NCBI GenBank assembly: GCA_949825025.1
Contig: OX463784.1
Span: 7,447,431-7,511,430, forward strand
Source: Siphlonurus alternatus
Lineage: Eukaryota > Arthropoda > Insecta > Ephemeroptera > Siphlonuridae
Length of the DNA stretch: 64,000 nucleotides
Direction: 5' to 3'
A program made the translations under genes and the position numbers. This document shows positions 22,323 through 62,583 of this stretch, one piece after another (within the stretch, counting starts at the first letter, position 1; each line of letters begins with the position of its first letter). The notes beneath the pieces were generated by a model, which worked only from the letters and a program-made list of their open reading frames with translations, did no database searches and was not told the origin of the DNA.

Positions 22323-22923
22323 ATGGGGAACACGCAATCATCAGAAGCCAACAGGTATGTATTGGTCGTTTGGAAAATTTAGCATGTCATGAATATTGAA
22401 TCACTATCAGATCATAATATGTCAAATTAATACATTAATAATTATTTAGCCTTTCACATAATTTGAATATAAGAATGCAAATTAAAAATCGATCAGATTT
22501 GTATTATTTATACAATACAAACACACAACTCAAATAATCAATCAACTTAAATAATTAATTAACTCAATTTACTCAAGTAAATTGTTTCATTCATTTTCTT
22601 TTTTTTTTTCATTAATGTATAATTATTTTTAAGAGAAAAACATCTGTTCTGGTAATGAGCTAGAGGTTTCGCAAGTTCCACCAACACTCACACGTTCTGC
22701 TGTTCCAGTTGTTCCAGACACGTCCTGATTCTGAGTCATGATGAGTTCCCTGGCCGCGAAGATTTTTTACCATCTCGCAATGGTAACAGAAAGGACGTGG
22801 AGGACCTTGAAATTTCACTAAGAGCTCGAGGTTTCGAGGTGGTCACGTGTCACAACCTCACCACGCAGCAGGTCAAAGATCAAATCAACTTTGGTGGGTA
22901 CCTGCCCTGAATTTGTTCAAATA

Positions 22924-23015
<92 letters not shown>

Positions 23016-26000
23016 ATGTTGTCATCTTTATTTTATAGTTTTGGAATAAATTGTCCCAAAACTTAAATTTTTTTCGTTAAATATTATGTTTGAAATATCT
23101 GCGTAGTTTTATTAATTCGGTAAAATTGAAGATAGACAGGGTTCAGAAGGATTATATATATATATATATATACCAGGCCAACTATTTGACAAAATATTAG
23201 CTCTAACTGCTCTAAGACTACATGATACAATTTTGCATGTATATTATATAGTTTTCCCATACAAGAAAAATATATTTCCATACAAAGAAATGACGTTTAT
23301 TATAATATTGTCTTTATTATGGAGGCATAATGCCTCAATGGTATGTTTTTTTGTAAAGATGTATGCAATAATTAGAAAAATTGTATCGTGTAATATATTA
23401 AGCTTTTAATTTTTTTTTTTTTTTATTTGACCTTAAGTTTTACAGTAGTGTCCAGAAAAGGCAGAGCCTTATATTTCTAGTTCACATTACATTAATCTAT
23501 TGTCAAAATATAATATTTTTTTTACAAAAAATTATTTAATATTTTAAATTTATTGTAGAAATGGTTTTTATAAATATATATATATATTTTTTAATTCTCA
23601 ATAGTTGAAATTAATTTAAACCAATAATACAAGTTACATGATAACAATTTTTTAACCATTCCCTAAAATTCTAAATACAATTTGAAATTATTTACACATA
23701 TAGCTGAGACAAATTGAAAAACAAAAAACAAGACACAAAATAAACATATTCGATGTTCATATCTGAAACAGAAGATAAACCCAACTGCATAGACAAGGCC
23801 CAACCCCATACCAGACCCGGACCCCATCCATGCAATCAGGTGTTTGATTTTAGTATTTTGTACTTTGCCAAAACATAATAGAAATAACCCCTGTATTTTA
23901 AGATAGTAATTAAATCATTGAATAAAGCTAAGAGAAGATGTTTATATAGAAAGTAAGTTACTATTAATATTTATAATATTTAATTTTAATATAAGAAAGA
24001 GTAAAGGATATTTTATAAAGAATTACTATTGTTATATTAAGTAGTTGCTAATATAATTTATGATCAACATTTTTTTCCCGTTTTTAATATTATTTTTAAA
24101 CAGTTGAATTTTTATATTAAAAACAACAGTTAAATTTATTTGAATTAATTAACTGCAATTTAACCATTATTTCCCTTTAAATTACAGAAAATGAGTAATG
24201 TGTGAATATTTATATTGTAAATTTAACATAATACCTGAAAAAGAAGAAAAAAAAAATATTAGCTGCAAAGAAGAGTTTTATTATGTATTATCTAGGAACC
24301 ATCTTTTTAATTCAATTTTAACTTTAGCTTTCGTATCAAAATGTTTAAGGGATGGCGGTAGAGCATTCCAGAGTCTTGGCAAAATATAATTACTGGTCCT
24401 CTCTCCAAATCTATTTAAGCTTCTAGGGGCTATGAGTGGATTATTACCAGCAATTCTAGTCTCATATATATGAACTCTGGGGAGGCCATGCGACTCATCA
24501 AAATATCTTTCTACTAATAGTAGGTACTCAGAATTTTTCTTTAAAGGCAATACACCCCAATATTTAAATATGTTATCATTTGAGTTAAATTTTACCCCCT
24601 TTTTCATATTTTTTAGTATTCTTTTTTGCATTTTAGCGAGTGCAGTAAATGCCCCAGAAGGAACAAAACCCCATGACGTTAAACCATAAATTAAATGAGA
24701 ATGAACTAATGAAAAATAAACAGATCTTAGGGTCTTTTCATCAACATATTTTTTAATTGCAATAATTTGAGAGAGTGCCGATCTTAGTTTTTTAATTAGA
24801 TTATTTACATGAGCATCCCATTTAAAATCTTGATCTATAATGACCCCCAAATATTTATGTTGGTATACTTCTTGAAGAACATTACACATACAACCCAGCT
24901 GAAAGTTATGTAAACATTCATTAGTGTGAGCTTTCAAAGTTAATAATTCTCCAGCCCTTAAAAATTTATTAAATATATGCATAGCTTTGGTCTTTTGTAG
25001 ATTAAGCACTAATCCTCTATCATGTGTAAATTCAGAAAGTAAGTCTATATTGCATTGCATTATGTTCTGCGCTACTTCAAAATTAAGGTGAGAGCAAATA
25101 ACAAGTAAATCATCGGCAAACATATAAACTTTACAGTTTTTTAACAAAGAAAAAATTTTATTTACATATATTAGGAAAAATTTAGGTGCCAATATTGATC
25201 CTTGTGCTAAGCCAATGTATATATTTTTAATATTACTAGTTTCATCATTAACTTTAACAGTAATTTTTCTCTCCCTTATTAGTGAGGACAATAATTTTAA
25301 TACAGGACCTCGTATTCCGATTTCTTCTAAATCTTTTATCAAGATATCATGGTTAACAGTATCGAAAGCCTTCGAAAAATCAACAAATAAACAAATTACA
25401 TGCTTATTTTGACTCAGTTCATTGTTTACATGGTTAAAAATCTCACCAATTAACTGAGTTGTATTTTTGTTTTTTTGAAAGGCATACTGATTTTTATGAA
25501 TAATATTAAATTTAGATAAGTATGTCGCCAAATGCATATCAATATATTTCTGTATAATTTTATCAACAATAGGAAGAATAGCAATAGGACGATAATTAGA
25601 AAACTCATTAAATTTACCCGATTTATAAATAGCACGAATTATAGCAAGTTTAAGTTTCATCGGATACTTCGATGTTTTTAAACATAAATTTATAATATTT
25701 GTTATACATTTAATTAAATTTTCTCCTCCTGCAAGAATATCTTTAACTGTTATTTTATCATACCCAGGTCCTTTATTTATGTTCAAATTGTTAATAATAT
25801 TTTTGGTGACCTCATATGTAATTGGAGGAATATAAATAGATTGAGGTTGGCTGCAGTTATTATTGAATTCACTTAATTTTACATCACAATTATGTATTAT
25901 GTTTTCTACTCCCTCCACAAAAAAATTCGCAAACCCGTTCACAATATTTTTTATGCTATATTTATTTCCCATATGACGCAATATGATTTCATCGATATTG

Positions 26001-29000
26001 CTTAGTTTTCTTCCAAGAATATCATTTATAATTGACCAAGTAATTTTTATATTGCCTTGTGATATTTGGAATTTATTTCTGAAATAGTTTATTTTAGCAT
26101 ATTTAACTTTTTCATTTGCAATATTTCTATATTTTTTATACAAATTTTGGTAATTTTTGTTAGTAGGATTATTATTTGATCGTTTAAACCAATAATCTCG
26201 TGTATTAAAATGATTCTTAAGTTCATCCGTCACCCAGCATTTATCAACAATTACATTTTTTTTCTTATAATCTAATTCTTTTACATCATTTAAAATAGTA
26301 CAATTAGTTTTAATATCATTGAAAACATTTACAATATTATTATACAATACATCTACACTTTTTTCATCTGAATATTGTTGCCAGTCAAAACTAGAAATTT
26401 TATTTAAGTATTTTTTATAGTTAAGTCTGTTTACATTTTTTTTTATAACATCATAATTTGAGTTGTTTATTACCGATAAACTAGCAGCAATCATATAGTG
26501 ATCAGTTACTTTTGTTTGGATTACAGATGTAATACAATCCATTTTATAAAGTTTAACAAAAATATGGTCAATGCACGTGGATGATTTATTATTACTACGA
26601 ATTTCTTCTCGTGTCGGATGATAAATTCCTTTTAAAAAACCATATTTGGCCATATTATTTTCATATTTGTCCTTATTATCATCCTCTACAGCAAACAGGT
26701 TAATATTAATATCCCCAACCAACATTATATTTTTCCGCCATGATTTTATGAGAATTTTATTTTTAATTTCAGTAATAAATAATTTTTTATTTTCTGATGG
26801 GGGTCTGTATAATGCAAACAAGGTAATGTTATTATTTATATCAACCCCCACACATTCTACTGAGTCTAATAAAATGTCAATTTCTGTATATTTTATGTTA
26901 TGTTTAATGAATATTATTATTCCTCCCCCTCTATTTATATTTCTAGGCTTGAAAATCTTTGAGTATCCAGGAATGTTATACCTTGTTCCCTCTTCTTCAT
27001 ATATGTAAATTTCAGTTAGTACAATTACATCGATGTTTTGTAAATTATTTTTAATTTGAGCAAAAAAGTTATCAAAATTTTTTCTTAGAGATCTTATATT
27101 TTGATGAATTATATTAATTTTATTCTTATTTGTCTGATCATTTAAGTTAAAAAAATCATTTAAAGATTCAGTTTTTTCACATTTAATTAGTTCTAAATTT
27201 TCAAAGTTATCTAACATAAATAGTTAGAAACATATAATTAAGTCAGCAACATTAAGTTCTTTTTGGATTTATTTTTTTTATAATATCTCTTTCATTGAAA
27301 ATTCGTACAGTTCCCTCATCTTGTCTCTTTTTAGCAAAAATTTTTCCATTTTTAGCCCATGTAAAATGATAGTCTCTCTCGCGAGCTGCCTCACGAGTCA
27401 TCCACAACAGCTTACGGTAGTAGGGCGTCAACTGCTCAAATACCTTAACTCTGTTCATACTCGCCGTCCCCAGCACAGCACCCGCCGTCAAATTCCTGGT
27501 CTGTTGACGGTCGAGCCAGGTCGCTCGAGCCGCTGCAGCCTTGAACTTCACAACAAGCACTGGCGGTTGGTCTCGTAGTCTAGTGTTGCGCGTGTTTACA
27601 GGCATGCGGTATGCGTCCTCCACTGAGTCTGCTGCAGGCGGTGCACCGATCTTTTCTGCCAATAACTGCACGGTGTGCTTCACATTCTCGTTTGGTGGAG
27701 CCTCTAGTCCGTGCACTTCTACAAACTTAGCAAGATTAGCCTGTTCTAACTCATGCACCCTGTCCGTTAGATTGAGTATCACTTCATCTTTTTCTTTGTC
27801 TTTGGTCGTCAGAATATCCACTTTATTCAATAATTCATGCACTAATTTATTTTGTTCCTCCTGTTTCATTTTTATATCCTCGTACTGAGCTGATATAAAT
27901 TCAACAGAATTTTTTATGTCAGGAATGTCACTTAATTTATTTTCAATACTCATAAGATGTTTCAATAAGTCTTTATTTGAGATATTAGAGTTATCGTCCT
28001 CACCAGAATTATCAGCATTTTCACCAGCTTTATTGTAACATAAGCTGCACTTCCATTTTAAGTCCTGTCTTGGCTTGTTACGCGACGCTCTTTGTATGCA
28101 GTTTACGTGAACACCCACTGTCTTGCAAGTTGTGCATTTGATCGTGTCTTCTGCCTCTTGTAATGTTCTTTTACATACATCACACACCATTTCCACAGAA
28201 TTTGTATAGCACTTCTTCAGTAAATAACAGTAAAGACAGTGTAAAATTAAGTAAAAACATATTTTATTTCGAACAATTTCGTAAAAAAAAAATCAATATT
28301 GATAAAAAAAACTATTATTTTATGTTAAATATAGTTTTCAATCAGTAAGTGTAAGTTAAAGAAAACTGATTTTTTTTTTATTTTTTTTTTTTTTACACAG
28401 TCGACTTATCTTATTATTATGCAGTGCAAGAATAAATTTGAAAAATTGCTATCTTTTTAACTTTTTTAACCACCGAGAACTTACACAATTAAAAAAACAT
28501 CAAAACTGTTTACTTACTTTTAATTTGTCTACCAATTTTTTTAGTGAGTACGTTAAATTAAAACTCAATATTTCATAAACACTACTCCAAATTTTCATTT
28601 TGTATACAATGAGATATTAGAATGTGAAAATTTTAGTGGCTTAATCGAAAAAAGGGGTAAAAATATGATACTGTGAATTTTTTCAGACTTTTTTGAGACC
28701 GGGAACTATTTTTTAAAAATCATTGAAAGTCTATTTTGATGACGTCACGGGCAGCACTCCTTAAGAAAAAGGATAGGGCAGTGCCGCCCGTGACGTCATA
28801 AAATAGACTTTCAATAATTTTTTAAAAATAGTTCCCGGTCTCAGAAAAACCTGAAAAAATTCGCAGTACCATATTTTTACCCCTTCTTTCGATTAAGTCA
28901 CTAAAATTTTTACATTCTAATATTTCACTGTCTTATTGACAGTGGCGAACGAGGGCGACTTCTCGGACAGCTCGTGCCTCGTGATCGTGGTGGCGACGCA

Positions 29001-32000
29001 CGGCAACCAGGGAGGCGTGCTCTACTCCAGGGACGCTCATTACCTCACGAGCGACGTCTGGGGACCTCTGGTGGGGAGCAAGAACTTCAGAGACGTGCCC
29101 AAGATCATCGTCTTTCAGGTAATAATAGTCGTCATTAATTAAAATGTTTATTTATTTTCTATGGAGCAAAGGCTTAATTTTCTCAGCCCGGCCAACGTTA
29201 TACATTATTTAAATGGGTAAAAATTAATACACCTGCAAACTGATTTTTTCCCCCTCTTCTCCCTCATTTTAAATTCTGAAACTCTCATGGCCCGGATCAA
29301 TATATGAAGTTATGCCATACAATGTGTAACAAATAAATAAATATTGCAAAATTATGTAATTTGTTGCATCTATAAGAAAAATATACTAAATATTTAAAAG
29401 TTACTTTATTATTTAAAGTAAACAGTGGGGGGGCATTCACAAAGCACTTTAACCCCAACTTTAGCCCCAAGTGTTATCCCTGGTACTAAACATGGTACTA
29501 AACCAGGGGCTAACCATGTTTAGCTCCTAGTTTAGCACCATGTTTAGTACCAGGGATAAAACTTGGGGCTAAAGTTGGGGTTAAAGTGCTTTGTGAATGT
29601 CCCCCAGTGTGTAATATTGAACTTTAATGTAAGTAAATTTTCAGTAATATTGTTAAAATGCGACTAAATTTAAATTCACGTGATTGCAAGCTATAATATC
29701 TAATCAACTATCTAATATTGCAGGCTTGTCGTGGAGATGTCATAGAAGCCATCATGGAGTCCGGCACGATCGAATCCTCCAACTCAGAGTCAGAAAACAC
29801 TCAGGATTGTTACCCGAGACTGCCACACGATGCAAATTTCATACTGGCTTTCAGCACCGCCGAGAGTAAGTATTTGCTTATTGAGGAGTTTCATTAAAAA
29901 ATACCACGAGTTATTATAAGGGGCATTCACAAAGGCTTAAGGCCACATTTAAGGCTCAATAATTTAAGACCAGAAATTTTGGGTCTAAAAGAAACGTCTA
30001 AAATAAAGCTTTAAATTATCGAGCCTTAAATGTGGCCTTAAGACTTTGTGAATGCCCCTTTATATGTTTTATTTTCACTGCTATAAATTGAGACAAGGAA
30101 AAATAAGTTTAAAATTTAACCACGTTTAAAAATATTTGTAGTCGTTCAAAAAAGAGTTTACGTCTAAAAATGTCAGGAAATTTCATAGTTTCTACTCGCT
30201 TACGATTGTAAGCGGTTATACCATATCGTAAACTAAATTAATTGAAATACGTAATTAGTCATTATTGACACATTTTTAGACGTAATTTCTCGTTTAACAG
30301 ACTGTGTAAGCATCAGTATTATTTTCTTGAATATTTATATCAAACTATCAGTCTAATTATTAATGGACAAAATAAACATAATGCAGCAATGAATAGAGGA
30401 CATACAATTATTATATTACCCTGATTATTTCAGATTCTTTAGAGGCCAGCAAGTATTGCTAATTTTTTTTGCTGAGATCGGGTTTGAACCTACGCCTCTT
30501 TTAGGTCCTATCCTTTTATTAAGGTTAGGGACGAAAAGAATTGATGCAACCTCTTAATTTACTTTAAATAATTTTTAAAAAATAGTTCCTGAGCTCTAAA
30601 AAAAAAATCGGAGTATCATGACTTTGCATTCTCTATTCATTTGTGCATTCATGCAGATTATCTATAGAGGGGATTGCGCTGACGTCACGCGAGGAGAGCC
30701 AGAATGCACGGACTAGCATATAAACAAAGTGTGCAATAATTTTTTACTTACCTTAATAAAATAAATAAATTTTAAATACTTCAATAATACTTTAACAGTA
30801 CACGATAGAACTCATAAAAAAAATCTCACCGCCAAAAAAACCGTTAAAAGTATTTTTTATAATTTTTTTTTCGTCATTTTGCCTATGCTCACTGTATAAT
30901 CTGGCCTGCCAAAACTTTCTCTTTTCCCTCCCTCCTGCGTCTCCTTCGCAATGTATTATTATAGGGAAACCCCTCTCCCGCCTCACGTAAACATAAACAG
31001 AAATCAGCTCTATATATAGTAGTTAAGAACATTAAGACAGTTTTTATAAATAATTTTCTGCCACAGATCGTTTGTCGGTTCGCAACAAGAACTCTGGTAC
31101 ATGGTACCTCCAGTCTTTGTGCACGGAGCTCAAGTTGCTGAAGGAACCCTCAGACGACCTCCTCAGCATGCTCACCAGGGTCACTTACTACGTCACAAGT
31201 CAGGGTATGAAGGGAAATGCCCAGACACCCTCCGTCATATCCTTCCTGCCGTACGAGATTAACATGCAGTGAGTATATAAATTCAAGAAGAGTTATAATG
31301 GAGTTTCGACCTCCATTTTTTTTTTTACTGAACCCTGATTTTTTTTTCCATATATTTTTTTTTTTCAGATTTTTTACAGCGTTTGGAAATAGTTTTAAAA
31401 AATTATTGAAAGTCCTTTTTGTGATGTCATGAGGCGGCAAGTCCTATTTGTTTTCTTAAGGAGCGACGTCTCGTGTCATCAAAAAAAGGACTTTCAATAA
31501 TTTTTTAAAAATCCTTCCAGGGCTGTAAAAAATCTGAAAAAAATCATGCAGGGTAGCACGCAATAAAAATTTCTGCAATAAAAAAAATTGAGGTCGATCC
31601 TCCATTAACAAAGGTCTATATGTGCAGTTTGTTCATTTGAAATTTTTACAACAATGGATATATTTAACTATTAGTCAGTTCTTTCTTTTTTTTTTTTACT
31701 TATTGTCGGCTACTTTGACCTTAAAATTTTCAGGGAACATTTCAACTCTCCATTCGCTTGTATTGAGAAGAAAAGGTATTCTAGTAAGAAAAAATTTAAT
31801 TTAACCAATAAAATAATGGTCATCATGTAATACATGCTTTATATGGTATATAACAATATACTGTATAATATTCTTTTAATGATATTTTTTAATAAAACTT
31901 ATGAATTAGACGAGAAGTTTTTGTACTGTATTTTGTGTACAATGTCACATAAATTCAAAATATATTTATATTTTATTAAACGTTATATTTAGTTTCGAAT

Positions 32001-33456
32001 TCTGAAATAGTCATCTTCTATTATTTGTTTACTAGATTGCAATTTCAGGAGCATCATTGCACCAGGGACCGACGACAGATCCTTGGTGCCTCCTCAGACC
32101 CAAAGGGAGGACTTGGAGACGGTGTCAATGCAGACTCAGAGCACCGACAGAACTTACGATCTAGTAGCGGAAATCTCTGCCCAGGATCTCACTACCGAGT
32201 AAGTTATTAATTATTATTCTATTGTTTTGTTTTATGTTATTGGCTGAAGATGTACTACATCATTTATCCAAACTTATACAAATATTACACTATATCGTGA
32301 GCTCAAGAATGGAAAACCTGCATGATTTTTTTTTTTTTTTTCATATTTGGACAAAATACCTCAAGTTATGAATTTACATTTTCTCTGTGTCTTTTTTTTT
32401 TATCTGTAATATATATCTTTCGACACCCTTAAAATCTTATTGCCTAGATAATACGTCATTGCTAGTCATACAGCCTTTTTCTATTATGCTTGCGTGTTAA
32501 ATATTTTTAAAGTGCTTGTTGGGTGCATTACTAATTTTAACATATAAGTCTCTAAAACATAATAAGTTTTTTTTTTTTAATTTGTACATTTTTTACATGA
32601 AAAAAAATATCGGAAAATTATTGACATTTCATATAACTCGAAGTTCTTTATCCAAATATACAACAAGAAATAAAGCAGGTTTCAAATATTTGTCTTCATT
32701 TTATTTTACATGTATGCCAAAAAATCATATAAACAAATTCAATGAATGATCATAATTCAAGATGTTTGATGTTACAGTGGTTCTCCCGATAAGTCAAAAG
32801 TGAAACCCCGACAGACGCACTACGACTGGGCGTGCTTTTGCAGAGGCTGGGCGCTCATTTTCTACACAGACCTTCACACTGCAGATGCTGAAAAACTTGA
32901 GACAAGTTTGAGTAGCTTGCAATACAACACTGAACTGACGAAGCTAAAGGATTGCAGCACATTCGATGAACTTGACAAAGGTATTACAAAATTTATTAGA
33001 TTTAATTTTTTACTGATTAAATTTAATTCATTTTTACGAACAATTAACAAGTATTAAAATGAAATAAAATGGAAGGCCAATCTGTAAAATTCTCATTTTT
33101 TTTTTCTGCTATATTTCTTTTTTATAGCCGTGTATTTTCTAATTAAAAAAAAATGCAGGAAAATTGCTGCCAGAATTTTGCTTAATTATGCCTCTCTAGA
33201 TCACCCTGAATTTTTTTTTTACATGTTTTTGTATAGAATTGAAGAAAAATAAATAGAAACAGGATGCATTATACTTAAAAATTATGAATATAATACTGCA
33301 TATTAATTACTTTTAAATTATGCATATTAAGCTAATATTATATAGTATGCTTAATAATTTACACTTATGCCAGTATAAAAATTAATTTTTAATTAACATT
33401 GAAATAAATAATACAAAAATACAACAAAATAAAAATTTAAAACATAATACACAACC

Positions 33457-33487
<31 letters not shown>

Positions 33488-36400
33488 AATATTTTAAGGG
33501 TAAGGTAACGCCACCAATGTTAAAAAAAATCCCTCACACAAAAATTCTGAAAAAAATTTAAAATGTTCTCCTCTACACCCCCTATCAGTAGCTAAAATAT
33601 CAGGTGTACAAATTCGATCTAGTTTTTGAGTTATGAATTTTTAAAGTTGACTACTTTTTAACATGGAGAAATGGAAATCCCATGTTAAATTAGTCAACTT
33701 TAAAAATTCATAACTCAAAAACTAGATCGAATTTGTATACCTGATATTTTAGCTACTGATAGGGGGGGTGTAGAGGAGAACATTTTAAATTTTTTCATAA
33801 TTTTTGTGTGAGGGATTTTTTTTTTTTAACATTGGTGGCGTTACCTTACCTTTAAGTGGTTTCCCTTTTATATTTGAAAATTATCAATTCCACCAGACAT
33901 CTCCAGTAATAATTAAAATTAAGTCGTTTATTGAGAAAGTGGACACAAAATAATAATACTTTTAAATTAAATTCATTGATATAAAAGAGAAAATTCAAAT
34001 CATATATATAAAAAAAATCATGTAAAATCTTCGTCACTAATATAATATAAACTAGGTACGTGACAAGTAGATTTTTTTTTCCTGTAATTTTTTAGGGCAA
34101 CGTCTTAAGGGTAAGGTAACGCCACCAATGTTAAAAAAAATCCCTCTCACAAAAATTCTGAAAAAAATTTAAAATGTTCTCCTCTACACCCCCTATCAGT
34201 AGCTAAAATATCAGGTATACAAATACGATCTAGTTTTTGAGATATGAATTTTTTTGACCAATTTAACATGGGAGTTTCATTTCTCCATGTTAAAGTAGTC
34301 AACTTTAAAATTTTATAACTCAAAAACTAGATCGTATTTGTATACCTGATATTTTAGGTACTGATAGGGGGTGTAGAGGAGAACATTTTAAAAAAATTTC
34401 AGAATTTTTGTGAGAGGGATTTTTTTTAACATTGGTGGCGTTACCTTACCCTTAATTCTAAGATTCTGAAGTTGCTTTTCCACGGAGCGATGTTGAGAAA
34501 GGCTTGGAAGGGCGAGAAAGTCGCACTTGCTTCATTTTCATATGGCAACCATGTTGGTATAAAATAATTGCATCGGGATTTGACCACTGGGGGAAAGGGA
34601 TTTTTCTAAGCCAACATGGCAAACATATGACATTAAAGTAAATGCGCTTTCCTCGCCCCTCTCGCTCCATGAAAAAGCAACAAAAAACAATTTTGTGTTT
34701 CCACAGTGGCAACAGATGCTAACTTAGAATATGACGGGAGCCTCCTGGTGGCAGTTTTGGCAACTATAGAGGAGAACAAACAACACCGTGAGACCAACTT
34801 CTTGATCGGTAATACGTTGTACCCCATCAAGAGGATCTGGAGGCCCTTCATCGCATCGAAGTGCCAGCACCTCCACGAAAAACCAAAAATATTTTTTTTC
34901 TTGGACAACGAGGATAGGCAGGACTGTGTCCAGAAACAACCGAGAGTACGTATTTTGCAGTCGAGTGTTTTAATATTGTCGCAGCTAGGGTAGATGAGCG
35001 TCCTGAGTTGGGCTGGCCAACAACGGGTGGTTCAACTTAGGACGCTCTACCCTAGACGCGACAATATTTGAAATGAAATAATTTATTACACACAAATTTT
35101 AGAAACTCCAAACAGCAGGTGAGACGTTAGTAGCTAGATATATGTTATGAGGGGTCATACATGACCAAAATGTGTCAATTGCCCCAAAATACCAACTAAT
35201 CAATCAATCAGAGCTGTAATGAATTGTGATCAGCAGGTCCAATGCGCACAGTAGTGGTGGATTTATTTTGAGCTATTGGTGAAAAAAGGTTTATTATAGA
35301 GAAATTTTAAATAAGTATATTTAGTGAGAAATTTCAATATAACATCTATAGCACATCTATTTTTCGTTCATAGGCAAGATGTTGTCTTTTTCGATGATGT
35401 TTTTATTAATTAATGTAAATGTGTTTTTTCCTTCATCGGTACGTATCCTACAAATCCAAGAATAAACGTTCGAAAGAAAAGAGTTAACTCAGCAAAGGGT
35501 CCACTCTTTTATTTTGAATAAACGTTTGTACTTGGATTAAATTTGTATGATACGTACCGATGAAGGAAAAAGCGCAATTAAATAACACGAGTTGCAAAGA
35601 GAGCATGTCTATACATAGATTCTTCCATATAATATATATATATATATATATAAGGTGTGCACAAAATTTGTGACATTTCTGAAAAAATGCACCTAAAAAT
35701 GTCAGAAACTTTGTGTGCACCCTGTATTTATATATATAATATATTTTACAAATATAATGGGACATATATAATATATATGCAAAAATAGCTTTCTAACTAT
35801 AGATATGTTATATATAATGATGTTAATGATATTTTAATGCACGATTGGCCTAGCGACAACATTGCTAAAATAAAATAAAATTGCCACAATAATATTTCAG
35901 TTACAAGAAAAAACTATATTTAACTTAAAAAAAAAAGACAAAAAAAAAAAAGATGAAAAAATATTTTTCTCCGTTAATGAAATTGATCAAATTTTTCTAT
36001 AACTTCTTGTTAGGTACGCGTATTATTTGATAAAGGTGTTCTCCATTATAATGCTGACAAATTTCTCCAGATCCTCTACCACGATGGGCCACAGGATCCT
36101 GCCACTCTAGTGACAGAACACACAGACTTCTTCTTAGTTTACGGCTATGGCAAAGGTAAAATAATACTTACTACAGTATTAGTCATATTATGTTGCTTTT
36201 CCGCTCTGTGGTGTAGTGGTTAGTACCTCTGACTCTGGTCCGAGAGGTCCCCGGTTCAATACCCGAATCCGGCAGACTTTTCGTGTCTTGGGATGGGTGT
36301 GACTGACTACTATATGATGGAGTGGTAGGAGGAAGGCAGTTTACGACTGTCTATACTCCGCTGCCCTGCAGTCTTGCACTGCTAATGCAGGCTGCACAGA

Positions 36401-39400
36401 TCTGGTAGTAGGAGCCCAGAAAAGTGCAGAAAAGGGTTCTGGGAGCCTGGTAAGCTCCAGCTCGGTCGCAAGATAACTCCTACTGGAAAGGCTAAAATAT
36501 CGGCCTGGCCACACTCGAAAGTGTAATAACGGCGTCAAGGATATTTATTTATTTTTATGTTGCTTTTCATCCTAAATGTGGTAGAGATAGTGGATTACTT
36601 TAAGACTGCTGTGATCCTGTGTTACAAAGAGCACTAAATTAACTAAGCAAATTACAATCACAATTATAAAGTAATAACGCCATTGGGGGTTTTAATCAAT
36701 TTTTTACTTACCATAGAGTACATACACATACTTTTTAATTTTAAATCTAGAAAATTTATATAATCTACAAGAAAATTCTGTTCACGTAATCCTGATATTG
36801 CCAACCTATCCAAGGTTTCCATGTTGCTTAATATATACTGTGAAGTGTGCTAGGATGAAAAAAAAATACATATGTAAATTAAAATTGCAACTGAATTTTG
36901 TTTGGCTCAAAAAAATAGTAAATAAAAAACTCTAAAATCTTATATGAATTACAAAGCTTGCAAATTTTAAATAAATTTTAAATAAAAAATAATATATTTT
37001 TTTTATTTGTTTACCTTTTAACTAAATTAGGGATGTTGTCCTCACAAGGATTTTTTTTAATATTTTTATTCATAAAAACAATAATACAGTCCTGCAAAGG
37101 CCGGAAGCCTTATAAGTAGGTGCTGTTTTACAATCATCTTAATATTCAATACTGGGCAGTTTTAGTACTTTGATATTTTTTCCTAAACAAATGTCTGTTT
37201 TTCAGAATTCATCACTTCGTTAACCAACACCCTGCAGCATAACGGTGACAAGCAAGAGCTACACAAAGTTATCACAAAGGCAGTCAAACACACCATCGAG
37301 AACTCTAAAAGAGAGGAAATTTCAAACCTGCCCCACTTTGAGAGCAGTCTTAAACTGCAACTCAAATTCCAATCCATTGATGTGAATCAGAAAACTGAGA
37401 AGATGAAACAAATTTGCAAGAAAATGCTAGCAGCAGACCTGAATCCTTTTGAAAACGGAGGAAACTATAAAGCCAAGGACAAAAATGGTGCAACTGCACT
37501 GTTTTTATTTGCAGAATCAGGGGCACTCAATGTTGTGTCTTGGTTACATGAAAATGGAGCTGATATCAGAGAACAAAACAAAAAAGGAGAACGAGCTTTA
37601 CATGTTGCATCTAAAAACGGTAAAGTAACCACAGTAGAATGGTTACTTGAAAATGGGTCAGACGTAAATGCTAGGAATTCTAGCGGTGGTACAGCGTTAC
37701 ATTATGCTACTTTTTCTGGTGAAATAAACATTGCTAAGTGCCTTTTAGATCACAATGCTATTATTAACGCAAAAGATGCAGTTGGAAATAGCCCTCTTCA
37801 TAATGCTGCAAAAACTGGAAATCTCGATCTTGTTTCTTGGTTAGTAGAAAAAGGTGCAGATGTAAATGCTGAGAATAAAATGGGATGGAGTCCACATTTT
37901 AAAGCTGCATATTTTTCAAATGCAAATATTACCCAGTATTTCTTGGAACATGGTGCTGAGGTTAATTACACTGAGAGCGATGTAAAAACTCCATTACATA
38001 ATGCAGCACTTATGGGATCATTGGAATTGATTCAAGCTTTCATAAGCGATGGAATACAAGTTGACTGTAGAAATGACTCTGGACAAACTGCCTTACACGT
38101 GGCTACACAGCATGCGGAATTAAAAGTTATGAAGGTGTTAGTGGAAGCTTATGGGGCCGATGTAAATGCAGTGGATGGTAGAAGCATGACTTCGTTGATG
38201 CTAGCAGTAGAAGAAGGAGAGACAGCAGTAGCGAAGTGTCTAATAGAGCTTGGAGCCAATATCAATGTAAAAAATAGATCCGGTAACACAGCTTTACATT
38301 TAACGGCTGATCGTGGTGAGTTAGATATATTAAAATGGCTTATAGAACAAGGCTGTGATGTAAATAGTAAGAATGAAAAAGGAGAAACACCATTACATAC
38401 TGCAGCGTGTTCTGATGAAAGAGATATTGCCAAATATCTTGTAGATCATGGGGCTGATATCAACGCCAAAAAGGACAACGGAAATGCAGTATTACATGAC
38501 GCTGCCTGTTTTGATGCAGGAAATGTTTGTAAATACCTGTTACAAACAGGTGTTGATTTTAATGTTGAGGACAACACTGGAGGTACAGCCTTACATACTG
38601 CTGCATGGGCTGGTGCAATAGATATTGTTACATATCTTCTAGAATATGGCATAGATATCAATGCTATGAATAAAATTGGATATTCAGCATTACATAATGC
38701 TGCACATTCCAATACAATAGATGTTGCTAAATATCTTGTAGGCAATGGGGCTGATGTAAATGCTCAGGACATAAGCGGGAATACAGCATTACATATCGCT
38801 GCATCTACTGGAGCAATTGATGTTGTAATATATCTTGTAGAAGAGGGCATTGATGTAAATTCTATGGATAACAAAGGATCTACAGCATTACACAAGGCTG
38901 CTAGTTCTGTTGAACTAGATGTTGTTACCTATCTTCTAGAACAAGGTGCTGACATAAATGCCACAGATGAAAACGGAATGACAGCATTACATAATGCTGC
39001 TATTAAAGGTGAAATTGATGTAGCTCATTGCCTTATAGAGCACGGTGCTGATATCAACGCTAAGATTGACAATGGATTGGCAGCATTACAAATTGCTCTA
39101 CGTTTCGGGAATCAAGAATTCGCTGCATTTCTTCTAGAAAATGGTGCTGACATTAATGCCAAAGATTCAATTGGAGATAATGCTCTTCATTATGCATCAA
39201 GAAATGAGAAATTAGATCTTGTTGCTTGGTTAATAGAAAAAGGTGGAGATATTAATGCGAAAAATAATATGGGATGGAGTCCAATTTTTTGGGCGTCATT
39301 ATTTTCATACACAGATATTTTTCAGTACTTGTTGGAACATGAGGCTGAAGTTGATTATACTGAGAGTGATGTAAAAACTGCATTACATAAAGTTGCTTCA

Positions 39401-39745
39401 ATGGGATTATTGGACTGGGTTGAAGTTTTCATAGAAGATGGAGTTGAAGTTGATAGGAGAAATGACTTAGGAGAAACTGCCTTACATGTGGCTACACAGT
39501 GCGGACAGCTAGAAGTTGTGAAGAATCTAGTAAAAAAATGGAAGGCTGATGTTAATGCAGTGGACAACGAAGGTAGGACTGCACTGCTTGTTGCTGCAAG
39601 TCTCGGCATGTGGGACATGTTCAAGTTGTTACTGGACTTAGGAGCGGACATTGGTGTAAAAGATAAGAATGGAAAAGACGTGACTGATGTCGCTACGAGA
39701 GAAGATGTGATAGCTTGTTTACAGGAACATTATTCAGCAAAATAA
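22323..39745 (+). CDS. Gene A: myristoylated caspase / pseudocaspase / ankyrin-repeat protein (1314 aa, 10 coding exons)
   Basis: Exons: 22323-22354, 22718-22893, 28943-29118, 29724-29865, 31067-31268, 32049-32198, 32778-32980, 34707-34945, 36071-36155, 37206-39745. All introns are GT-AG and the joined frame is 3945 nt. Residues 1-10 start MGNTQSSEAN, an N-myristoylation motif (Gly2, Ser6). Residues 11-242 are a caspase domain with His89 in THGNQGG and Cys130 in QACRGD. Residues 293 to about 530 are a second caspase-like domain without catalytic residues. Residues 559-1314 are ankyrin repeats. There is no CARD or DED. An acceptor-like TTGACAG at 22294 suggests an untranslated first exon upstream. 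Intron 2 holds a LINE. Paralogue: gene B. The exon model is inferred from splice sites and comparison of the two paralogues. Caspase and ankyrin identities are secure; function is not known. Confidence 0.87.
22924..23018. repeat. (AAAT)n microsatellite
   Basis: About 23 uninterrupted AAAT units in intron 2 of gene A, 30 bp after the exon-2 donor. Confidence 0.95.
24281..27217 (-). CDS. LINE ORF2: AP-like endonuclease and reverse transcriptase (978 aa)
   Basis: The N-terminal endonuclease/exonuclease/phosphatase domain (residues about 35-245) shows NIIHQNIRSLR, VIVLTEIYI, LVGDININLF, CIDHIFVK and TDHYMIAA. The reverse transcriptase (about 480-760) shows NYRPIAILPIVDKIIQKYI, NQYAFQKNKNT, FVDFSKAFDTVNHDI near 611, LAQGSILAPKFFLIYVNKI, and the catalytic box MFADDLLV near 698. 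The C-terminus has the usual post-RT region (YLGVIIDQDFKWDAHVN, HLIYGLTSWG). Its job is to nick the target DNA and prime reverse transcription there. Frame intact from Met to stop. ORF1 lies 34 bp upstream. Confidence 0.93.
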   Translation of the reverse strand: MLDNFENLELIKCEKTESLNDFFNLNDQTNKNKINIIHQNIRSLRKNFDNFFAQIKNNLQNIDVIVLTEIYIYEEEGTRYNIPGYSKIFKPRNINRGGGIIIFIKHNIKYTEIDILLDSVECVGVDINNNITLFALYRPPSENKKLFITEIKNKILIKSWRKNIMLVGDININLFAVEDDNKDKYENNMAKYGFLKGIYHPTREEIRSNNKSSTCIDHIFVKLYKMDCITSVIQTKVTDHYMIAASLSVINNSNYDVIKKNVNRLNYKKYLNKISSFDWQQYSDEKSVDVLYNNIVNVFNDIKTNCTILNDVKELDYKKKNVIVDKCWVTDELKNHFNTRDYWFKRSNNNPTNKNYQNLYKKYRNIANEKVKYAKINYFRNKFQISQGNIKITWSIINDILGRKLSNIDEIILRHMGNKYSIKNIVNGFANFFVEGVENIIHNCDVKLSEFNNNCSQPQSIYIPPITYEVTKNIINNLNINKGPGYDKITVKDILAGGENLIKCITNIINLCLKTSKYPMKLKLAIIRAIYKSGKFNEFSNYRPIAILPIVDKIIQKYIDMHLATYLSKFNIIHKNQYAFQKNKNTTQLIGEIFNHVNNELSQNKHVICLFVDFSKAFDTVNHDILIKDLEEIGIRGPVLKLLSSLIRERKITVKVNDETSNIKNIYIGLAQGSILAPKFFLIYVNKIFSLLKNCKVYMFADDLLVICSHLNFEVAQNIMQCNIDLLSEFTHDRGLVLNLQKTKAMHIFNKFLRAGELLTLKAHTNECLHNFQLGCMCNVLQEVYQHKYLGVIIDQDFKWDAHVNNLIKKLRSALSQIIAIKKYVDEKTLRSVYFSLVHSHLIYGLTSWGFVPSGAFTALAKMQKRILKNMKKGVKFNSNDNIFKYWGVLPLKKNSEYLLLVERYFDESHGLPRVHIYETRIAGNNPLIAPRSLNRFGERTSNYILPRLWNALPPSLKHFDTKAKVKIELKRWFLDNT
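27252..28196 (-). CDS. LINE ORF1: PHD-finger coiled-coil protein (314 aa)
   Basis: Residues 5-53 form a C4HC3 zinc finger (C5, C8, C21, C24, H30, C33, C50, C53) with Trp48 two residues before the seventh ligand, as in PHD fingers. Residues about 85-155 are heptad-like and charged, suggesting a coiled coil for trimerisation. The C-terminal third (PPVLVVKFKAAAARATWLD, then RVKVFEQLTPYYRKLLW) resembles the nucleic-acid-binding part of other LINE ORF1 proteins. Likely an RNA-binding chaperone for the element. PHD fingers occur in ORF1 of CR1-group elements. Confidence 0.85.
   Translation of the reverse strand: MEMVCDVCKRTLQEAEDTIKCTTCKTVGVHVNCIQRASRNKPRQDLKWKCSLCYNKAGENADNSGEDDNSNISNKDLLKHLMSIENKLSDIPDIKNSVEFISAQYEDIKMKQEEQNKLVHELLNKVDILTTKDKEKDEVILNLTDRVHELEQANLAKFVEVHGLEAPPNENVKHTVQLLAEKIGAPPAADSVEDAYRMPVNTRNTRLRDQPPVLVVKFKAAAARATWLDRQQTRNLTAGAVLGTASMNRVKVFEQLTPYYRKLLWMTREAARERDYHFTWAKNGKIFAKKRQDEGTVRIFNERDIIKKINPKRT
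28613..28926. mobile_element. Foldback MITE, TGGAGTAT family variant, copy 2
   Basis: Arms from GATATTAGAATGTGAAAATT to its complement, passing through GAGACCGGGAACTATTTTT and GATGACGTCACGGGC and meeting near TTAAGAAAAAGG. The outer 60 bp differ from other family members. The right end is only 16 nt before the exon-3 acceptor of gene A. Confidence 0.8.
29429..29606. mobile_element. Foldback MITE, GGGCATTCACAAAG family
   Basis: Nearly perfect 85-bp arms starting GGGGGCATTCACAAAGCACT, with TTAGCCCCAAGT and GGTACTAAACATGG blocks. In intron 3 of gene A. Related ends at 29921-30062 and, weakly, 58115-58257. Confidence 0.85.
29921..30062. mobile_element. Foldback MITE, GGGCATTCACAAAG family, second copy
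   Basis: Ends GGGGCATTCACAAAGGCTTA and a complement, with CTTAAGGCCACATTTAAGGC repeated inverted. It shares its outer 14 bp with the 29429 element but the interior is different. In intron 4 of gene A. Confidence 0.8.
30400..30660. mobile_element. Degenerate foldback remnant related to 52740-53115
   Basis: GAGATCGGGTTTGAACC followed by TACGCCTCTTTTAGGTCCTA recurs in altered form at about 52805. The flanks resemble the TGGAGTAT family (TTTTTAAAAAATAGTTCC, TTTGCATTCTCTATTCATTT). The TTTGAACC block looks like a tRNA B box, which suggests a composite origin. Confidence 0.5.
31295..31607. mobile_element. Foldback MITE, TGGAGTAT family, copy 3
   Basis: TAATGGAGTTTCGACCTCC at the left and GAGGTCGATCCTCCATTA at the right, with AATTATTGAAAGTCCTTTTT and complement inside. 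In intron 5 of gene A, 26 nt after the exon-5 donor. The flanking TA on both sides could be a target-site duplication or part of the ends. Confidence 0.85.
33494..33855. mobile_element. Foldback MITE, GTAAGGTAACGCCACC family, copy 1
   Basis: Near-perfect arms of about 170 bp beginning TTAAGGGTAAGGTAACGCCA and including CTCCTCTACACCCCCTATC and GATCTAGTTTTTGAGTTATG. In intron 7 of gene A; a second copy follows 250 bp downstream. Confidence 0.9.
34104..34455. mobile_element. Foldback MITE, GTAAGGTAACGCCACC family, copy 2
   Basis: Closely matches the preceding copy end to end (TTAAGGGTAAGGTAACGCCA to its complement). Same intron of gene A. Confidence 0.9.
34468..34682. mobile_element. Foldback MITE, GGAGCG family, copy 3
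   Basis: TGCTTTTCCACGGAGCGATG at the left and CTCGCTCCATGAAAAAGCA at the right; interior CAACCATGTTGG / CCAACATGG. Lies between a MITE copy and exon 8 of gene A, ending 24 nt before that exon. Confidence 0.7.
34974..35075. mobile_element. Short foldback element after gene A exon 8
   Basis: AATATTGTCGC, CTAGGGTAGA and GCGTCCTGAGTT pair with AACTTAGGACGC, TCTACCCTAG and GCGACAATATT. About 100 bp, starting about 30 nt after the exon-8 donor. Confidence 0.7.
35408..35571. mobile_element. Foldback element in gene A intron 8
   Basis: TTTTTCCTTCATCGGTACGT at the left pairs with ACGTACCGATGAAGGAAAAA at the right, with ACAAATCCAAG / CTTGGAT further in. About 160 bp. Confidence 0.7.
36202..36554 (+). 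mobile_element. tRNA-derived SINE with 14-bp target-site duplication
   Basis: The head has an A box (TGGTGTAGTGG, 36209 on) and a B box (GGTTCAATACC near 36253) of a tRNA promoter, then an unrelated body of about 270 bp ending GGCGTCAAGGATATTTATTT. The flanks repeat TTATGTTGCTTTTC exactly at 36188-36201 and 36555-36568, which fixes both ends and shows a fairly recent insertion. In intron 9 of gene A, sense to the gene. Confidence 0.88.
37472..39745 (+). other. Gene A ankyrin array: 22 repeats plus a terminal partial repeat
   Basis: One exon encodes uninterrupted 33-residue repeats with the usual pattern (G-x-TALHxAA-x-G-x-x-DVVxYLLExGADINAK). Repeats 7 and 21 have one extra residue. The array ends DVTDVATREDVIACLQEH, a helical cap. 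Repeats 4-7 resemble repeats 18-21 more than their neighbours (shared NKMGWSP/NNMGWSP and ESDVKTPLH/ESDVKTALH), so a block was duplicated inside the array. Ankyrin arrays bind protein partners; the ligand here is unknown. Confidence 0.93.
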
Positions 39746-42686: not shown

Positions 42687-45600
42687 CTAGGGCGGGGGGG
42701 GCCTTTACGAAAAGGCCCCAAATCAGTGTGCAGTGATCATTTACAATGCCAGTCTTAATTTTTCAAAAAAGTTTCAACGGGTTCGAAGAAATTGCAGGGA
42801 TTTTAATAGGGTTCATGGATTTGATAATAATCGGATGGGGAAAATATTTGCATCAATAAAAAATAAATAAAAGTAATAATTAAAAATAATAAATAAACTG
42901 AAAATAAAGCACCTCTGAATAGAGCAGGTCTACTTTCTTTTGTCACGATTCATTACAAAACTGTCAGCAACAGCGAAGCGAAACGTAGAAGTTAGGGCTT
43001 CTTAATCGGATGAAACCGGGAAAGCGGAATTCGGAAGGGGGACTTTTTAATCGGATGAAACCGGGAAACCGAAAAGCGGAAGGGGCTTATCAGAAGGAAC
43101 CTGGTAGAAAACAATGATTTAATATAAAATCAGTAACCATTTACATTTTACCTTGCAAGTCTTGGTATCTGAGTCAACCTCGCTAGTCGGCGGTCAGAGA
43201 ACGAATGACTGTTGAGAATGTCAACGACAGTCTCAGAAATTTTGAAATCATGTCCTGTCGCCGTTCCCAACAATGCTTGTTTACCCGTTGCCATGGCAAC
43301 GATGATCCACAAGCTGTGACGTCATGCGCATTACGGGGCCGCTCAATTATTGGCGGCAATCCGTTCAAACCGCGGTTCACGCGCGATTCAATATGTATGA
43401 AACGTGTTTCCCACCCAATAAAGATCGCCAGCAGCTTTAAATATTGCCGCCCGCTTTATTTTTTTGAATTTCCCCCCTTCCCCGTTCATTTCCGGTTCTC
43501 GAAAGAACTAAATTCGAGTTTCTGGCATAATTTAACATGAAACTGGACTGTAGAGGGAAGTTTGATATGGCTTGCAACGCGTAAGATTAAAAAACATGCG
43601 CGCGTTCGTCACGGGTCCGCCATTCATAAGCAGCTCGGCTCCTTCGGAGACCTCGCCTAACCATACAATGGAATAAGATAGTGTTGGCCTTTCGAAATAC
43701 AGCTCGGCTCGTTCCTCGCCTCGCTTAAAATTCTTGGATAGATGCGTGCGGGCAACGAATAACATTGCCAACTCATACGCAGCTCGGCTCGTTCCTCGCC
43801 TCGCTTAAAATTGAATATAAAATAAAATATTGATCTGAGCGTTAAATAGTGGTTATTTTCAAACTCCAGGGATGTTTTTACCTATAGAAAGACAATTTAA
43901 TATTTTATTTACCCTTAAATAACACCTGTACAGCGAAATCATGCATGAAATCCCAGCATAATATATATATAGTGCATATACGAAAAATAGGTATTTCGCC
44001 CGCCGCCATCTTGTTTTTCGAGATAGGTAAAATCCGAGGCCAGATTCGTGATCAGCGTGGTCGATATAGTCAGAAACCGTCGAAAACTCAATTTCGATTT
44101 TTCCCCCTATCTTCCCCATGTATAAGCGGTGAGAGAACCCCTTCTGAAATTTTTGTCAAAAACATAAAAGTCCAAAAATCTCGAGAACTATAGGTCGCAG
44201 CTTAAACCTGAAGACTGCATCTTGTCCGGCTCGAAAAACTGGTCTAGAAAAGTTGGACCAATAATTTTTCGGAACAAACACTTTCCCGAAATCGGGATTT
44301 TGGATATCGAAAAGTTTGTATCTTGGATCGGGCCGCGTGGGCCCCCTATGTGCCGGAAAATTCCCAAATTTGGTTTTTGGGCATTGTTTTGGGTCCCCTA
44401 CAACCTCCCGTCGAGAGTTTGCTCGAAAAAAAATTCCTTCCCCGAGTTTGGCGCAACCCGTAAAAAATGGGTATTTTGGCCGGCAGATCCGCCCGCAATG
44501 CTAATCAAATGGCCCCATGTTATTCTTATGGGGATTTGAGACCAGGCTTTCGTTTCCAAAAAAACGCATTTCCGGTGGTCGCAGGGGGTCGAGTAAGGTA
44601 TCAAATTGAAGGGCACATGGTGTAGAGTCCATAAAATGTCACAACAAAGTTGTGGGACGTTGCGCTCGGCCGCCATATTGGATCCAAAACGCGTACTTTG
44701 AAGGGGGGGCCCTGCGGGCCTCGTAGGACCCACATTCTTGAAACGCATATTTTTAGGCGTGGGAAGCTTAGTTTTAACAGGATTCGACGAAAAAACACCA
44801 TGTCAATAACGTAAAAAAAAAAGTTATTCGGGAAAAGGATGCGTTTCCTATGTTATCCTTATGGGAGGAGGTTGTTTTGCATTTCCCGCTTGCCTGGGCT
44901 AATTATCATAGTTGGCATCGATTTGAAAAAAGTTTCTGAAAGAAGAAGAGTGTGGACAACTTTCATACTGCGCGAAATTTTCGAATTCAGGTGTGCTCAA
45001 AAGTTATTCGAGGGGAAAAGTGGTCCATTTTTAGCATGCGTAAACCCTATGTTCCCATGCGATTTTTTGAGTTTTTTGAAAATCGAAAAATCAAGCCGTA
45101 GAAAAGTTAGGACTCGTCAACAGCTTTCAGAAAAAGTGTATAACTCGTTCCTAGCCGAAAAATTGCTCAAACTGTTAGGGGGGTTCACCAGATTGAAGCT
45201 AGTGAAAAAGCTTTTGAAAACCCCCCCGCTGGAGGGGGCCCAAGGGGCCCCAGGGGCCCAAATCAACAATTTTCGGAAAGCACGTTAAATTTGAATTTTG
45301 ATGGATTCCAATATAAAAACAAGGGGCCCCTTCGGGCCCCCGTTTTGGGGCCCGAAAATAAAAAATGCACCCCTAGGGGGTTTTAGTGCCATACTGTACG
45401 GATCCGGCCAAAGCAAGGTAAGTATGCCTCGGAGGTGCCATGTTTGTATTTGGCGAAGCTGCGTCGTCTGTCGGGACACACTTTTGCTGTGGGGACCTCC
45501 GCCGTAGCTCTTCAATCTAATGATTTAAGGCAAGGGCCGTAAAACACCTTTTTTTCGAGGTTCCAAACTTCCTGGGCCCGCAGCCGTTGAAGCAAAATAG

Positions 45601-46198
45601 ATAGGAGGGAGCTCACATGAAGCTAAAAGATGCCTGACACAGTCCTCTAAACGATTCGACCAAAAAAAGTTTGAATTTCCAACTTTAAAACGTTTTTCAG
45701 CGAAAACCGCAAAAACAGTGATTTTTTTTGAAAAAAACACTAAAAGGGCGATAAAAAATATTCTGGGCAAAAATTCGAAAAACAAAAAAAATGACTTTTG
45801 CGCATTGCTTTGAGGTACATTTCGGCCATTGGGACTTAAGCTGTAACTCATACACAGTGTCCTGGAACCGAGTGCAAAGTTTTTAACATTATCGCTTATG
45901 GCGGGCGAACGGTGCGCCGGACGCCATCTTTGAAGGCAAAAAGTAGGGGTAACGCATGTTACCTAAAGCTGTTTTTGGGGTCAAAACGTCATTTTTCGGA
46001 AATTTTTGAAATTTCGGGAATTTTGGAAATACCCCCGGGAATTTTCGGGAATTTTTGGATTTTGAAAATGACGGGTGGGGCCCTTCGGGCCCCACCCGGG
46101 ACGCGCCCTGCGGGCCCCGCGGAGGGCCCTCCGGGCCCCTTAAAGATTCTTGACCATGCATTTCAAATCAGAGATTTAGTGCTTTTAATATAATATAA
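42687..46198. repeat. GC-rich tandem unit, copy 1 (about 3.5 kb)
   Basis: Begins CTAGGGCGGGGGG and ends TTTAGTGCTTTTAATATAAT. Copy 2 follows directly. The unit has its own direct repeats (CAGCTCGGCTCGTTCCTCGC at about 43699 and 43781, with a partial one at 43630), and several GGGCCC-rich hairpins (near 45230, 45330 and 46080-46140). Open frames of 90-149 codons exist on both strands, but the two copies differ mainly at amino-acid-changing sites, so I do not regard them as genes. Nature unknown: possibly a large non-autonomous transposon or a macrosatellite. Confidence 0.75.

Positions 46199-50491: not shown

Positions 50492-62583
<12,092 letters not shown>

Follow-up and report, generated by a model that had tools for sequence, protein, structure and literature searches.

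A predicted mayfly protein combining a caspase, a caspase fold lacking catalytic residues and an ankyrin array, and a linked gene of the same layout

Described caspase pairs and ankyrin proteins

Caspases are normally activated when other proteins bring them together, and ankyrin arrays are commonly binding scaffolds. In this work, we analysed a 64,000-nucleotide stretch of the genome of the mayfly Siphlonurus alternatus (NCBI GenBank assembly GCA_949825025.1, contig OX463784.1, positions 7,447,431 to 7,511,430 of the forward strand), hereafter called the window. A gene model in it, designated gene A, combines in one predicted protein a caspase with its catalytic residues in place (the live domain), a second caspase fold without them (the dead domain) and an ankyrin array, and a second gene, designated gene B, has the same layout.

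Proteins that unite a live with a dead caspase domain in a single chain have been described before. Coral caspase-X of Acropora, like the proteins predicted here, carries one inactive domain without His and Cys and one active domain in a single polypeptide; in the available text its authors propose a pairing like that of caspase-8 with FLIP(L) and describe a small family that is apparently coral-restricted (PMC4715348). The full caspase-X protein was less effective at killing cells than its active domain by itself (PMC4715348, available text), which is the nearest functional hint for the mechanism proposed below. However, the dead domain of caspase-X precedes the live one, and the word ankyrin is absent from the main text of that paper. 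In mammalian caspase-16, the dead domain is reported, in the accessible parts of two papers, to come from duplication of caspase exons within the gene and to lie beside a live one (PMC12292325, PMC12198278), which is similar to what is suggested here; unlike here, it forms an N-terminal prodomain, and ankyrin is not mentioned in the available text of PMC12198278. In the models of both genes A and B, a dead and a live domain occur in one chain with the live domain first, and the dead-first order of caspase-X and caspase-16 was not found. Four mussel caspases also have two CASc domains each, but neither ANK nor ankyrin appears in the main text of the paper describing them (PMC10967218).

Other systems share single aspects of this layout. 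In the available text on caspase-8 and FLIP(L), a live caspase is likewise under the control of a pseudocaspase partner, and the heterodimer is preferred to the homodimer (PMC7586951); that pair, however, consists of two proteins joined via death effector domains, and Pfam finds no such domain here. Likewise, for Aedes CASPS18/CASPS19, an arthropod decoy caspase is said to enhance a live caspase, but these are two proteins and no ankyrins are described in the accessible text (PMC4840389). The protein Caiap resembles the gene A product in its long C-terminal ankyrin array, which in Caiap's case acts on an active caspase in immunity, its ankyrins binding active Caspa (PMC5662874, available text). 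By contrast, Caiap is an adaptor with a CARD and 16 ankyrin repeats, which its authors did not find in invertebrates (PMC5662874), and in our models a caspase domain stands in the place of the N-terminal CARD. Fungal protease sensors with WD40, ANK or TPR repeats also join a protease to superstructure-forming repeats as a sensor, but they are mostly serine proteases with some cysteine proteases (e.g. CHAT), and no animal-type caspase pair is described in the accessible text (PMC12881547).

An earlier note on this DNA, made from the letters alone, knew of no named family with this architecture. As regards the combination of live and dead caspase within a chain, that statement proved too broad, given the coral, mammalian and mussel proteins above; it stands insofar as no ankyrin fusion to such a pair turned up. 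A literature search gave none among the matches listed, a weak negative with most subscription journals and animal genome collections outside the coverage, and the available text of PMC8195603 and PMC4833078 contains no caspase-ankyrin fusion. The live/dead caspase chain is already known, and the live-then-dead order and the ankyrin tail are new in comparison with these systems as far as the accessible texts describe them.

Two linked genes of the same layout

The splice borders of both gene models were set by hand, from DNA alone. Gene A (22323-39745, + strand), rebuilt from the DNA, has ten exons in one frame of 4002 nucleotides including the stop, and all nine introns have GT..AG borders. 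The predicted protein has 1333 residues; the continuous frame claimed in the earlier note is thus borne out, and its length of 1314 residues is not. The exons of gene A are as follows.

22323..22354, + strand: exon 1, MGNTQSSEAN, N-myristoylation-like start, region matching the start of gene B
22718..22893, + strand: exon 2, first part of caspase p20, residues 11-69
28943..29118, + strand: exon 3, caspase p20 with catalytic His89 (codon 28999-29001)
29724..29865, + strand: exon 4, ACRG of QACRG with catalytic Cys130 (codon 29727-29729), and intersubunit linker
31067..31268, + strand: exon 5, caspase p10 with SVRN loop; reading through the donor gives a stop
32049..32198, + strand: exon 6, linker between live and dead caspase, with AQDLTTD at its end (32179-32198 plus 32778)
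32778..32980, + strand: exon 7, first part of dead caspase
34707..34945, + strand: exon 8, middle of dead caspase, catalytic His and Cys positions not conserved
36014..36155, + strand: exon 9, dead caspase, substrate loop apparently missing near the exon end
37206..39745, + strand: exon 10, end of dead caspase and 22 ankyrin repeats, unspliced frame, stop included

The predicted first exon agrees with the MGxxxS start noted before, whose N-myristoylation-like character we take from the consensus. A Pfam scan of the whole gene A protein showed Peptidase_C14 in two stretches, the best at residues 11-234, with 161.6 bits in total, and many ankyrin matches. The join between dead caspase and ankyrins lies within the single unspliced exon 37206-39745 and is therefore independent of the gene model, which rules out separate caspase and ankyrin genes for this join.

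A tblastn search of the window with the gene A model revealed a further set of matches, collinear with the first, between about 52496 and 62628, together with a weak exon-1 match at 50492. The resulting gene B (50492-62583) lies outside the coordinates covered by the earlier note. It has twelve exons in one frame, GT..AG borders at all 11 introns and a predicted product of 753 residues, in the order MGNTQSSVT, caspase (ATHGN, QACRG), dead caspase, ankyrins, the last in an exon of their own joined in phase 0. Its exons are as follows.

50492..50520, + strand: exon 1, MGNTQSSVT
52489..52667, + strand: exon 2, caspase p20
54113..54288, + strand: exon 3, caspase p20 with catalytic His (54169-54171)
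56410..56560, + strand: exon 4, ACRG of QACRG with catalytic Cys (56413-56415)
56718..56934, + strand: exon 5, caspase p10
57282..57311, + strand: exon 6, 30-base linker exon with AQDLTTD at its end
57649..57839, + strand: exon 7, dead caspase
59338..59436, + strand: exon 8, dead caspase
59490..59653, + strand: exon 9, dead caspase, preceded by an extra 53-base intron absent from gene A
60605..60686, + strand: exon 10, dead caspase, acceptor less certain, shorter than exon 9 of gene A
61290..61498, + strand: exon 11, end of dead caspase; read-through meets a stop at 61552, which would give an ankyrin-less form
61849..62583, + strand: exon 12, 6-7 ankyrin repeats, stop included

Peptidase_C14 scored 165.5 bits over the whole gene B protein, again in two stretches. 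When the two genes were compared as DNA, 11 of 36 matches linked exons, whose order was the same in both, and all ten exons of gene A were represented by at least one match. Exon 10 of gene A matched gene B only in a 59-base stretch of ankyrin sequence; the dead-caspase end of this exon was matched at the protein level (47% over 70 columns). The remaining 25 matches fell in introns or flanks; most were not collinear and several hit multiple sites, like dispersed repeats. Since the whole arrangement recurs in gene B, the architecture of gene A is more than chance, and separate caspase and ankyrin genes are unlikely for the rest of the chain as well. The locus appears to be a tandem pair of genes, each predicted to encode a live caspase, a dead caspase and ankyrins. 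The single protein proposed earlier, a caspase with catalytic residues joined to a dead caspase and ankyrins, is supported by the continuous ten-exon frame, the Pfam domains and the same layout in gene B.

The caspase domains, their linker and the ankyrin array

Compared with solved chains, the first caspase domain matched 206 distinct sequences at E 0.001, the best among the matches listed being 1m72 'Caspase-1' (4e-29), presumably from Spodoptera. His89 and Cys130 (QACRG), both at the places given before, and the arginine of the SVRN loop are in line with 1m72; ATHGN and QACRG align with 1m72 and 3sir, and R31 (SRxG), Q128 (QAC) and R181 (SxRN) align with three chains. We take His89 and Cys130 to be the catalytic residues and R31, Q128 and R181 to form the aspartate pocket. 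With a p20/p10 fold above the Pfam cut-off, the catalytic His/Cys and this pocket, the domain belongs to family C14 (PF00656). The first domain is a caspase with its catalytic residues in place, and protease activity after aspartate is predicted. NCBIfam gave no match for the caspase domain, and Pfam at E 0.001 found no DED, CARD, NACHT or NB-ARC in either protein.

Scored alone against Peptidase_C14, the second domain reached 41.5 bits in gene A and 43.6 bits in gene B (cut-off 21.4), and against PDB sequences that of gene A matched 3sip 'Caspase' (6.6e-5), which we take to be of fly origin. The catalytic His and Cys places hold other residues and the substrate loop seems to be missing. The second domain is accordingly a pseudocaspase in the sense of a caspase fold without catalytic His and Cys, as the earlier note had it. 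A profile comparison of live and dead domains gave E 1.3e-4 over 189 columns with a probability of 54%, and in a shuffle test of four live/dead pairings the observed score was reached in 0, 0, 1 and 0 of 500 shuffles. Taken with the Pfam scores, these results rule out a chance likeness to caspases.

Intron phases run 2,1,0,1 on the live and on the dead domain in both genes, leaving aside the extra intron of gene B, and in a four-way alignment the first internal intron falls at the same column in all four domains. As the live-domain exon block starts and ends in phase 2, it could be duplicated with the frame unbroken. The intron phases and the profile alignment suggest tandem duplication of the live domain within the gene as the probable origin of the dead domain.

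Substitution rates between genes A and B were estimated by the Nei-Gojobori method as the ratio of nonsynonymous (dN) to synonymous (dS) change, the live-domain figure being calculated without exon 3. The live domains are 62.6% identical with a dN/dS of 0.285 over 171 codons, and the dead domains 62.4% identical with a dN/dS of 0.199 over 229 codons, so that both caspase domains look constrained between the copies. The residues encoded by exon 3, among them the catalytic His, are 96.6% identical between the genes at a dS of 0.079, and the exon lies in the following stretch.

28933..29133 (gene A) against 54103..54303 (gene B exon 3), + strand: near-identical stretch, 97.5% DNA identity over 201 bases

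This identity reaches just beyond both exon ends. Because the other live-domain exons are only 64-77% identical in DNA, the stretch is a probable gene conversion tract.

The linker exon has 150 bases in gene A and 30 in gene B, and AQDLTTD is identical in both linkers. Over 13 aligned interdomain linker codons (gaps dropped), the genes are 46% identical with a dN/dS of 0.78; the identical codons are those of AQDLTTD, and the two linker aspartates of gene B both lie inside this motif. We take AQDLTTD to be a candidate cleavage site.

A consensus scan found 22 ankyrin repeats in gene A, the count given earlier, all of them in exon 10. For gene B it found 6, and Pfam Ank stretches at E up to 1 gave 7. 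Repeats 5-8 and 19-22 of the gene A array (37206-39745) are identical at 72 of 130 residues, a sign of block duplication within the array.

Relatives were also sought in other collections. Searches of a protein collection gave 6330, 109 and 2398 candidates, none at E 0.001 and not even an ordinary caspase, which suggests that this collection is poor in animal proteins and that absence there says little. A prokaryotic or viral relative was rejected: pattern searches gave 65 and 42 matches among viral contigs and 65 among genome contigs, and tblastn confirmed none of them.

Several further features were seen around and between the exons. Intron 2 of gene A contains the following element.

24281..28292, - strand: non-long-terminal-repeat-like retrotransposon outside the protein, with a reverse transcriptase frame (24281-27223) and a second frame (27252-28292)

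Its reverse transcriptase frame is open over 980 residues, and its second frame matches PHD and Baculo_FP. Copies of a repeat whose halves look inverted by eye occur at 33494-33856 and 34103-34455, and further copies lie near 51200 and 53129 in introns of gene B. A sequence like a transfer RNA for alanine, tRNA-Ala (TGC), is present at 52179-52255 in the first intron of gene B (Rfam score 33.2, threshold 29), and Rfam at the gathering score found nothing beyond it. Between the two genes, a direct repeat of about 2.7 kilobases (43504-46198 and 47517-50236, 90% identical) lies in a stretch of higher guanine-plus-cytosine content. At 5309-5641 (- strand), an exon-like frame matches glycine cleavage system P-protein with 126.7 bits.

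Proposed mechanism and alternative explanations

The reading that we favour, held with as much doubt as confidence, is that of a single-chain caspase/pseudocaspase pair that is controlled by the ankyrins and cut at the linker on activation. The N-terminal live caspase would probably be myristoylated and so tethered to a membrane. Within each chain, the live and dead domains would most likely pair in the manner of caspase-8 and FLIP(L); the pair would have a single active site, and the dead domain would govern its activity. The ankyrins may bind a partner, either a host regulator or a foreign protein, and would hold the pair inactive or cluster chains upon binding. As the last step of activation, the chain would be cut at the conserved LTTD|G/A of the linker, and the caspase would thereby be released from the dead domain and the ankyrins. 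Such an ankyrin-tailed caspase may have an immune, receptor or cell-death role. A bolder version, which we put forward as a speculative and rather unlikely proposal, is a new class of animal sensor, an inflammasome-like circuit in one chain, in which a changing ankyrin array with foreign or host proteins as ligands would gate a membrane-tethered caspase paired with its own pseudocaspase, and self-cleavage at the conserved linker site would fire the circuit a single time, within a tandem, gene-converting family that diversifies its ankyrins.

Several points weigh against the single-chain pair. In a profile search of the PDB, the best single stretch of the dead domain reached 0.0012 and none reached 0.001. 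Two of the three internal introns of the dead domain agree with the live domain in phase but not in column, in a poorly aligned part, and the dead-domain dS of 1.36 is near saturation. As no homologue beyond the window was found in the collections searched, the evidence for conservation comes from two linked genes with at least one probably converted exon in common. Tryptophan is usual in the caspase SxRN loop at the place where the first domain carries Val (SVRN), and between the subunits gene A has TQD where gene B has TQE, implying that intersubunit processing is not conserved. The predicted structure of the unspliced exon 10 is weak (mean predicted local distance difference test score 61.9), with paired helices. 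In addition, in both genes the frame, when read on through the exon-5 donor, runs into a stop immediately beyond the end of p10, and both introns contain AATAAA/ATTAAA words, so that a stand-alone caspase could be the main product.

This last point leads to an explanation that we judge distinctly improbable, namely that each locus makes two products: the caspase alone through polyadenylation in intron 5, and the dead caspase with the ankyrins as a separate or rare long form acting in trans like FLIP(L). The stop of gene B on exon 11 read-through, which would give a form without ankyrins, also fits. However, a GTGAGT donor in that phase yields a stop automatically, and exon 6, its splice borders and AQDLTTD are kept in matching phase in both genes, a pattern not easily accounted for if exon 5 were not joined by splicing to exons 6 and 7. 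Another explanation, also rather unlikely in our view, keeps the chain whole and takes the ankyrins as a substrate-docking arm of a constitutively paired caspase, the array recruiting substrates or holding the chain at cytoskeleton or membrane with no ligand sensing. The 22 and 6-7 repeats of the two genes would fit different client sets, and the ankyrins of Caiap act as a binding scaffold (PMC5662874, available text). The conserved LTTD between the caspase and the rest of the chain fits release of the caspase better than its lasting tethering to substrates, but docking and sensing are indistinguishable on present evidence. Finally, the dead caspase and ankyrins might be functionless leftovers of a decaying gene pair, as the second domain has lost its catalytic residues and apparently its substrate loop, and gene B has a shortened exon 10 and an extra intron. 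Such a pseudogene reading is very unlikely given the dead-domain dN/dS of 0.20, below that of the live domain, and open frames and splice sites are intact in both genes.

If the single-chain pair is real, it would provide a compact and testable model of pseudocaspase control, with partner and binding array built into the same chain as the caspase, and the linked copies with 22 and 6-7 repeats would offer a natural comparison for the role of the array.

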